From Salpingoeca rosetta (taxonomy: Eukaryota > Opisthokonta > Choanoflagellata > Craspedida > Salpingoecidae): a stretch of 11,386 bases of DNA. The translations under genes were made by a program, and so were the position numbers. Where the stretch lies: assembly GCF_000188695.1 (NCBI RefSeq), contig NW_004754927.1:1460532-1471917 (forward strand). The letters run 5' to 3'. Every line of letters begins with the position of its first letter. Within the stretch, counting starts at the first letter, position 1. Below, piece by piece: positions 2,348 to 4,504 of this stretch. The notes under the pieces were generated by a model. It ran no database searches. It was not told the DNA's origin and worked only from the letters and a program-made list of their open reading frames with translations.

Positions 2348-4504
2348 TCACGATCGGCCTTTGATGGGCCAAGCAGTTGGCTTAAGGCGGCGCTTGGTGA
2401 GTGAAAACCACTCACGAACGGTCTCCATATGCTCCGTGCCAACTTCAGCCTTTGCGGCACGCTCTGCACGCGTGCGCTTTGACCGCAAGCGCTTGCGTGT
2501 GCGCTCAACAATCGCCGCCAGCTCATCCAACGACAGGAAGTAGTTGACCTCCTTGAGTAGGTTGGTGGGGTCGTCATCGTCGTCATTGGCAGCGTCCTTG
2601 CTGCGCCCAAATGCACGCCGGCATGTCTTGCGCATGAGGGCGGCCGTCACCTCGCCTGTGCCGGCCCTCCTAGCGGCGGTGCGGACACGGGCGACAATGG
2701 TGTTGCGGCACTTGACGCAGAACACCTTAGAAGGGGACGAGGTGAAGAAGGCGTTGCCCACGTCGCCACCGCACACAAAGCACGCCGCGTTGCTCGGCTC
2801 GCACGCCACAGCGACCAGCGTCTTGTCTGCGCAGACGGCCCTGTGCTCCTCCAGGTCCTGCGTCACCACGCGCAGCATGGCCGCGCACAGGGCAGCGTCA
2901 CGCGGCAGGCGCTTCTGCTCCCGCAACAAGACACAGCGCGCAAGGTGGCGGCGCGGAACGATGTGGTACGTCGCACCAAACATCGACACATACTGCAGCG
3001 CGCAGGCCGGCGCAAGGTTCCACGACACATGCACGCATGCACTCAGCGCCTGACGCCAACAACCAAGATTTTGAAGAGGGGGGGGGTAAAGAAAGAGGGG
3101 TGGAGCATGAAGACAAACAAACAACATGCGTGTGCCAAAATATAGGTGAGTGGTTGAATCGCTGCGAGCAAGTATCAAACACAGTGCACTCGCAGAGAGT
3201 CACACACACATGCACACACACAAACATGCACATACACACATGCACATACACATACACACGCACAAACAGTGTGTGTGTGTGTGTCACACAGATACACACA
3301 CTATCTATCCATCTATCGTGTCACACAGATACACACACTATCTATCCATCTATCATCTCAATGCGTGCATGCATGCACACACAACCAAGGCAGGAGAGAA
3401 ACTCACCCGAACCCAGTGAAGGGTGCCTGGGTTGACGAGAACAGCCTCGCCCGGCCCTTGGATGAACCGCACCAGCGGAATGTTCTCCTTATCGAGCTCG
3501 CCAGGTGTTGGCCACCATGCTTCCTTGAAGTCGATGCCCTTCTTCTTGCAGAGCGACTTGACGCGGCCCACGTGCTGCGGAGCAACGCCGTACCACACGC
3601 ACGACCCCGGCCCGACGTTGATGTTGATTGCCATCAGGTTGTTGTTCTCCTGGCGTGCCGTCATTGAAGTGCCCGGGAGATGAATGAACATCTGCGGGCT
3701 GTTGATGCCCTCGATGGGGTCGAGCTCTGCCAGCATGGTGCTGCCGCCGCGCCAGTGCAGCTCGTCGGGGAGGGCGTCGCTCAGCTCCTGCAACTGCTCA
3801 GTGAACACGGCCTGACACAGGTCGATGTTCGTGGCGAACAACACGCCCTTTCCGCGCGGAGAAACACGCGCACACAAGTCGTCGACAAAAGCAGACGTCG
3901 CCGATGTCGCAGCTGGCAACGGAAGGGGTGACAGCGGCACGCTTGTCACAAAAGGCAGCGCCCTCTCCTTGGGTGGAGGCGAGGCCAAGAAGACGCACTT
4001 CCACGACGCGGGCGGTGCCAGGATCTTGACGGACAGCATAGCCAACAAAGATGGGGGTGGTGGTGGCGGCGACGAAGGTGTCATGAAGATCTCGTGCTTG
4101 CCCCAGCGAAAAGTCCAGCCAGTGCAATACGCCTTCTTGAACTCAGGAATCTTGGCCCGTTTTCGCGGCAGCTCATCCTCCATGCTAAAGTCTTCGCCAG
4201 CAGCTTTAACAGCTGCCCAGGAGTTCACAGCTTTGGAGACACATGCGGAGAGGGACACGACCGCCGTGAACTCGGAAACCCTCCACTTGTTGATGCGCTT
4301 CTGTACGTGTGCCATGCGGTCGTGGTAGGAGATGGACTGCAGCTTGTCGAAGGAAAACGCCGGCAGCGGGTACTTGGTGGTGAAGCCCGGGTAGCGGAGA
4401 AGCGGTGGGCTATCGACCGTTGGCGTGGGCAAAACACCGGGCCCAACGCCGTTGGTCGTCAGGCACGCGTCCTTCCACACCACTGACGATGCAGTCCGAG
4501 GCAT
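2348..4504 (-). CDS. KDM6: KDM6 (UTX/JMJD3)-family JmjC protein, predicted catalytically inactive
   Basis: Two exons on the minus strand, 4504-3407 and 3049-2348, flank one phase-0 intron (donor GTGAGT at 3406-3401, acceptor AG at 3051-3050); the product is 599 residues. KDM6 enzymes are nuclear Fe(II)/2-oxoglutarate oxygenases that demethylate H3K27me3/2. Evidence for the family, in order: FATNIDL (223-229; UTX has FGTNIDL); the JmjC core with QENNNLMAININVGPG, KEAWWPTPGELDKENIP and VRFIQGPGEAVLVNPGTLHW (about 285-364); across the splice, ACVHVSWNLAP, matching WCNNIAWNVGP; then IVPRRHL and the zinc domain C456-x2-C459...C477-x2-C480. The C-terminus has an acidic run (522-526) and a basic stretch RTRKRLRSKRTR (549-560). 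No TPRs are seen, so the layout is JMJD3-like, although an upstream exon cannot be excluded. The ATG at 4504 is chosen for its ACC ATG context and because the in-frame stretch upstream is Ser/Pro low complexity. Oddity: the JmjC iron motif HxE is R284-Q-E286, while H363 is kept; K, T, S and the last N of the 2-oxoglutarate pocket are H275, M281, A292 and H373. Confidence 0.88.
3201..3284. repeat. CA-rich then TG microsatellite in the KDM6-like intron
   Basis: Imperfect CA repeats with ATGCAC and ATACAC interruptions (3201-3267) are followed, after ACAGT, by a pure GT run (about 3269-3284). CA followed by GT on the same strand makes this a self-complementary tract that could fold in the pre-mRNA. 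It lies inside intron 3050-3406. Confidence 0.85.
3281..3354. repeat. Perfect 37-base tandem duplication
   Basis: The 37 bases at 3281-3317 recur exactly at 3318-3354. Each unit contains GTGTCACACAGATACACACA and then a CTAT/CCAT tetranucleotide stretch. Both copies lie in the intron of the KDM6-like gene, 47 bases from its donor in the gene's own direction. Perfect identity suggests a recent duplication. Confidence 0.95.

Follow-up and report, generated by a model that had tools for sequence, protein, structure and literature searches.

A KDM6-like gene in Salpingoeca rosetta

The window, a stretch of 11,386 nucleotides (C7:1460532-1471917 in the assembly), contains a two-exon gene on the minus strand, here called copy A. 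Exon 1 (3407..4504, minus strand) encodes residues 1-366, from the start codon to ...HWVR, and is followed by the donor GTGAGT. Exon 2 (2348..3049, minus strand) encodes residues 367-599, from the acceptor CAG to the stop codon. When the exons are joined (4504-3407 and 3049-2348, with GT/AG borders), the product is 599 aa long and identical to S. rosetta PTSG_03365.

The Pfam search on copy A detected a JmjC domain (PF02373, 70.4 bits). The solved-structure sequences matched by copy A, nine in number, are all KDM6A, KDM6B or UTY (E 1.7e-36 to 1e-35), a strong match in line with the KDM6/UTX relationship proposed in the first-pass annotation. The protein search with copy A gave 13 hits. The 11 hits besides copy A and another S. 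rosetta protein, copy C, bear precomputed KDM6 Pfam domains. Copy A is thus a JmjC protein whose nearest sequence relatives are KDM6 proteins. The four-Cys zinc-binding domain of the KDM6 family is found C-terminal of the JmjC domain, with all four Cys (C456, C459, C477, and C480; 2708..2782, minus strand) present in the sequence and in the 14-row alignment described below.

Other parts of the KDM6 module were not recognised in the protein. The Pfam profiles KDM6_GATAL and KDM6_C-hel showed no match in copy A or in its close relative, copy B, and they match 7 of 10 rows of the relatives' alignment. A KDM6_GATAL profile search of the genome gave no match, and neither did its control. No TPR was detected by Pfam in copy A. 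A profile of 657 positions from seven relatives matches copy A solely at profile positions 337-621; the match starts at 320 in copy B and at 355 in copy C. The only precomputed Pfam domain of copy C (PTSG_02170) is JmjC. None of the three S. rosetta copies has a recognisable beginning of the KDM6 module. Since the matches of copy A include neither the N-terminal catalytic segment nor the TPRs of UTX, it is termed KDM6-like here, not KDM6. The scaffold, which had been described as preserved, is preserved in part only, from profile position 337. The Rfam search gave no match.

Substitutions in the active site of copy A

The 14 rows of the alignment used are copies A and C, copy B in its exon 1, and 11 other relatives. 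UTX K1137, S1154, N1156, and N1236 are numbered as in the first-pass annotation, and the distal iron-binding His of UTX is H1226. The numbering of UTX H1146, E1148, T1143, and Y1135 follows PMC3459986.

Active Fe(II)- and 2-oxoglutarate (2OG)-dependent lysine demethylases have an HxD/E...H iron triad. Copy A has R284-Q-E286...H363 instead, in which H363 is 77 residues past E286. R284, which stands where UTX has H1146 as its first iron ligand, is encoded by CGC (3653..3655, minus strand); the codon is CAC in copies B and C. The distal iron-binding His (UTX H1226) is retained as H363 (3416..3418, minus strand). These residues are exactly as first described. The comparison with KDM6 relatives, which had been suggested as a check, leaves copy A as the only one of the 14 rows without the first iron His; it is present in 13 of 13 others.

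CGC and CAC are one base apart, and copy A could be an active KDM6 whose CAC was misread as CGC. Such a single-base sequencing error is extremely unlikely and was rejected, as the codon lies inside a block of 60 bases with 23 differences from copy B. Several codons in this block are changed at two or three bases, and the position of Lys1137 is changed too.

At the 2OG-site positions, copy A has H275, M281, A292, N294, and H373, all where the first-pass annotation placed them. The Lys1137 position is Lys in 12 of the 13 other rows, Glu in copy C, and His (H275) in copy A. The Thr1143 position is Thr in 13 of the 13, and Met in copy A if it is aligned without a gap. The counterpart of Asn1156 is retained as N294. 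An additional change, beyond those first listed, is at the Tyr1135 position: Tyr is found in 12 of the 13 other rows, Arg in copy C, and Phe273 in copy A. Two other positions are less informative. Five of the 11 other relatives (four of those five without species name) have Ala or Gly at the Ser1154 position, so A292 of copy A is unremarkable. The Asn1236 position is His in both copies A and B.

The reading of the Thr1143 position depends on the alignment. Four gap penalties were compared, and under the lowest one 'GACG---GCAC' in the DNA of copy A pairs with 'GACGCCTGCAC' of copy B; T282 then takes the place of Thr1143 and one Pro codon is missing. With the two stiffest gap penalties and in the profile alignment, there is no gap around this position. 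The substitution by Met would thus hold for the ungapped alignment, the alternative being a shifted T282. It had been claimed that four of the five 2OG contacts are lost. This is an overcount, since an Ala at the Ser1154 position is nothing unusual, the His at Asn1236 is also found in copy B, and the Met at Thr1143 is alignment-dependent. The 2OG site of copy A is altered in Lys to His and in Thr to Met or shifted, with the counterpart of N1156 kept.

In UTX, H1146A, T1143I, and Y1135C are each reported to abolish demethylase activity in cells (PMC3459986). In the same report, the alignment of the UTX/UTY/JMJD3 homologues identified by 2012 shows H1146 and E1148 in all species. Because H1146A alone and T1143I alone abolish the activity, and copy A has Arg at the first position and either another residue or a shifted spacing at the second, it is very likely that copy A has no demethylase activity, as had been predicted. 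Glu286 may be paired with Arg284 instead of the metal. It is very improbable that copy A has remained an oxygenase by way of an unusual site, where another residue serves as an iron ligand or the chemistry is different. The retention of E286, H363, and N294, and the loop residues that differ as a block and not singly, are consistent with such an enzyme, and the inactivity of UTX H1146A (PMC3459986) argues against it.

The mouse and human UTY (KDM6C) proteins are similar to copy A: UTY is a KDM6 duplicate that exists alongside an active paralogue, and its demethylation is absent or reduced. In mouse UTY, the counterpart of Y1135 is Cys and that of T1143 is Ile (PMC3459986). The same two positions are altered in copy A, to Phe and, in the ungapped alignment, to Met. 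In contrast to copy A, which is without the first iron His, human UTY has lost none of the three predicted iron ligands and is reported to show some activity (PMC4140284). JARID2 is another JmjC protein which is related to an active family (KDM5) and is assigned as inactive; two of its iron ligands are missing, and it acts with PRC2 (PMC11241480, PMC4140284). JARID2 differs from copy A in its KDM5 relationship, its other domains, and its known role.

KDM6-like genes elsewhere in the genome

A protein search of the whole genome revealed eight exon-level matches, which belong to three loci (copies A, B, and C). A placozoan (Trichoplax) KDM6 query also found copies A, B, and C only (139.8 bits for B, 124.7 for A, and 111 for C), and the presence of a further KDM6 gene was rejected on this basis. 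JmjC matches in the genome are 11 in all at the exon level.

Copy B is located about 88 kb from copy A in the inverted orientation (C7:1553253-1555725; 1754-2743 and 3075-4226 of locus L017, plus strand). It has an open reading of 713 aa across the same intron as copy A. Its active site retains Tyr, Lys, Thr, H-Q-E, Ser, Asn, and the distal His. A search of the same genome for a second, intact KDM6 had been suggested, and copy B with its HQE...H triad is a candidate for such a gene. A long Asp run is seen near its C-terminus. Among the three copies, only copy B looks like a near-normal enzyme. Its competence as a demethylase is uncertain, considering the His at Asn1236 and the unrecognised part of the N-terminal module.

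Copy B was not seen in the protein searches queried with copy A, with the alignment, or with residues 181-345 of copy B. The search with residues 181-345 found only copies A and C among 305 candidates, and the alignment-based search found only copies A and C among the best 7987 candidates. Within the database proteins of about 392-1248 aa, copy B is therefore not seen. Surveys of annotated proteins may therefore miss copy B.

Copy C (PTSG_02170) is a KDM6-like gene on contig C5. It belongs to the same gene family as copy A and has a related upstream region. Unlike copy A, it retains H-x-D...H, and the triad is thus possible; its Lys1137 and Asn1156 positions are Glu and His, respectively. The C-terminal tail of copy C (locus L018) contains about four near-identical tandem units (TLDSPDGNGSSSA...DYSARALATTDYAMSSATVPTAAFEL), as judged by eye. 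No orthologue of copy A, and no further choanoflagellate KDM6, was identified in other species by the three protein searches, two of which had capped candidate lists: copies A and C are the sole hits named as choanoflagellate among the matches listed, where 4 of the 13 hits of the copy A search carry no species name.

Near-identity and divergence between copies A and B

Copies A and B were aligned over the upstream DNA and the gene, and mismatches were counted at ungapped sites. In the exon sequence, intron, and upstream DNA that they share, about 98-99% of the bases are the same. Mismatches are 2/147 for residues 1-49, 2/141 for residues 226-272, none in the following shared 70 bases, 1/107 for the end of exon 1, 4/316 for the intron (with 56 gap columns), and 1/369 for exon 2 before the tail. 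Residues 331-490, which include the zinc domain, are identical (160/160).

The upstream region common to copies A and B corresponds to 4505..7017 (minus strand). Over 6370-4505, 34 of 1726 ungapped sites differ, with 167 gap columns; 12 of the 34 mismatches are in one microsatellite block. The whole upstream BLAST match out to 7017 is 90.8% identical with gaps, and most of it is also present upstream of copy C at 74% identity. When the 2.4 kb or so that precede copy A (4510-6900) were searched, the lengthy ones among the matches listed were only at copy B (90%) and copy C (74%, query 202-2253 of 2391), and the remaining ones were short.

About 250 bp beyond the end of this shared region, a gene for a TPR protein starts (7265-10747, plus strand), pieced together by eye from three exons. 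The TPRs of the protein are of the nephrocystin-3 type, and a PH domain is found at its C-terminus. The gene has no DNA match in the flank of copy B that was compared. The sequence at 11033-11385 also matches near copy B. It is a dispersed repeat with 26 genome matches including itself, the others being 86-97% identical, and was rejected as a part of the A/B duplication.

Three islands of divergence interrupt the near-identity. Island V1 (residues about 50-221; 3836..4351, minus strand) is barely alignable between copies A and B, with differences at 230 of 403 ungapped sites. Copies B and C resemble each other here, and V1 of copy A has one genome match, itself. Island V2 (residues 273-292; 3629..3688, minus strand) is the active-site segment and bears the counterparts of Tyr1135, Lys1137, Thr1143, His1146, Glu1148, and Ser1154. 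Its 23/60 base differences stand against 10/1150 in the shared gene background (binomial P 7e-32). Island V3 is the C-terminal tail of copy A (2348..2680, minus strand); 146 of 306 ungapped sites differ from copy B, and its one genome match is itself. In addition, a minor divergent patch at about residues 317-330 (3514..3558, minus strand) shows 5 differences from copy B in 45 bases, plus one codon.

The 20 codons of V2 contain 13 amino-acid replacements and one silent codon change. The replacement:silent ratio of 13:1 contrasts with 2:6 for the remainder, the shared codons that lie outside the islands (Fisher P 0.002). The contrast is reduced to P 0.03 if the minor patch is included in the remainder (6:6), to P 0.04 if three silent changes at the V1 edge are removed (2:3), and to P 0.26 with both regroupings (6:3). 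The contrast is thus suggestive only, and positive selection on V2 is not established. Of the 246 placements of a random 20-codon island in codons 226-490, 18 would cover the His-x-Glu and 3 would cover residues 275-292. This argument is post hoc, chosen with the data in view, and its P is only about 0.01-0.07. In V2, copy A has the family residues P277 and N288, and copy B has Thr and Asp there. V2 of copy A is therefore not simply a decayed copy of the present patch of copy B, and its origin by point decay from that patch was rejected.

It is improbable that the mosaic, or the pairing of the islands, is an artefact of assembly or phasing, with reads of copy A, copy B, or a further copy misjoined. 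The near-identical stretch between V2 and V3 (0.8-0.9 kb) is longer than a 454 read of about 400 bases, and the published assembly is described as a hybrid of 454 and Sanger reads, in which misassembled joins were broken manually (PMC4054682). The assembly analysed has 49 contigs and the published one 154 scaffolds, and it is not established that they are the same. On the other hand, the published coverage is 33x with paired Sanger clones of 4, 10, and 40 kb (PMC4054682). V2, with its 23 differences in 60 bp, is about 150 bp from V1 and within one read, and V1 and V3 of copy A have one genome match each.

Relationships among the three copies

Different segments of the genes show different relationships. 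In V1, copies B and C share 84/124 residues, and copies A and B only 32/124. In residues 331-490, where copies A and B are identical, copies B and C share 115/160. In the minor patch, copies A and C are identical at 13/14 residues. In V2, the identities out of 20 are 9 for B-C, 7 for A-B, and 5 for A-C, and those out of 96 in V3 are 32 for A-B, 26 for B-C, and 16 for A-C.

The near-identity that includes the intron and flank, the sharp islands, and the conflicting segment relationships are the features of a gene-conversion pair. The complete identity of residues 331-490 points to recent homogenisation. Recent gene conversion between copies A and B, or a very recent duplication after which segments were replaced, would explain the mosaic. 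Donors for the islands of copy A were not found elsewhere in the assembly by DNA searches with V1, V2 and its flanks, and V3, which skip simple repeats and very common words. The search with V2 and its flanks (121 bases) found only copy A, copy B, and a part in copy C. Silent donor cassettes were rejected on the basis of these searches, in which V1 and V3 had a single genome match each.

Islands of this kind are known from the GOT1 paralogues of the copepod Tigriopus californicus, where islands persisting against gene conversion were read as regions selected for new functions (PMC3728101). This is another gene in another organism.

The homogenisation affects how the state of copy A is interpreted. 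The zinc domain is intact, as first described, but as it is identical to that of copy B, its intactness is not independent evidence of constraint. Most of copy A outside the islands is so close to copy B that little can be read from its being intact. The first-pass annotation had concluded that the changes are not random decay. The grounds given for it, the contact count, the zinc domain, and the scaffold, do not carry this conclusion. Partial support for it comes from the active-site segment, where copies A and B part amid sequence that otherwise diverges by about 1%.

It is possible, if fairly unlikely, that copy A is a decaying duplicate, where conversion from copy B keeps much of the gene open and the rest, including the active site, drifts without function. 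The shared blocks of about 98-99% identity and the lack of an orthologue outside S. rosetta among the protein hits are in line with decay. Copy C is also altered in its 2OG contacts (Lys to Glu, N1156 to His), so changes of the pocket are recurrent in the family, and the replacement/silent contrast is no longer significant when the changes are grouped in some other ways. Against decay, V1, V2, and V3 are unlike copy B and yet in frame; V1 and V3 are open over 280 codons, for which the chance is about 1e-4 by base composition. The splice sites of copy A are intact, and the A/B differences cluster at the active site and are not spread across the shared codons.

Discussion

Copy A is probably a pseudo-demethylase that has been kept distinct from its live-looking twin, copy B, despite recent gene conversion. 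The KDM6-like JmjC protein encoded by copy A would be unable to bind iron normally, and would not demethylate. Homogenisation of copies A and B appears to be recent and is most simply explained by gene conversion; it would extend over the upstream DNA, exon 1 at its two ends, the intron, and the zinc domain, while three islands including the active-site segment would have stayed or become different. With nearly the same upstream region as copy B, copy A may be expressed together with it. With the same zinc domain, its product may act without catalysis at the same chromatin sites, as a competitor or a partner of copy B. Its own N- and C-terminal segments may cause regulation different from that of copy B.

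On this reading, copy A would have a retained function. The more specific roles first proposed, histone reading or complex scaffolding, are conceivable for such a protein. The first-pass annotation took the non-catalytic role to be conserved, and no orthologue of copy A that would bear this out was identified among the protein hits. For UTX and UTY, demethylase-independent roles are reported in mouse and worm (PMC3459986, PMC3342935). The published gene catalogue of S. rosetta reports transcript support for 98% of genes overall, a figure from which nothing certain follows for copy A (PMC4054682). In the choanoflagellate and S. rosetta chromatin literature, no paper that deals with these genes by its title or the start of its abstract was found, and neither PTSG_03365 nor PTSG_02170 was found mentioned in the literature search. 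The words 'demethylase', 'KDM6', and 'UTX' do not appear in the main text of PMC11160669.

A more far-reaching model is that a live KDM6 and a dead twin stand under nearly the same upstream region, where selection keeps or makes different only the active-site and variable segments, and conversion homogenises the rest. This model is unlikely on the present data. If it is true, the dead copy would be built in to antagonise or tune H3K27 demethylation in a single-celled animal relative that carries H3K27me3 on its cell-type genes.

Set against the 2012 alignment of homologues (PMC3459986), in which all species have H1146, a KDM6-like protein without this iron-binding His would stand out as an exception. 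In S. rosetta, cell-type genes and transposons are reported to carry H3K27me3 (PMC11160669). Nature may have divided the live and dead functions of KDM6 between two genes that share much else. S. rosetta is genetically tractable. With H3K27me3 already mapped (PMC11160669), a demethylase-independent function of KDM6 would be testable outside animals.
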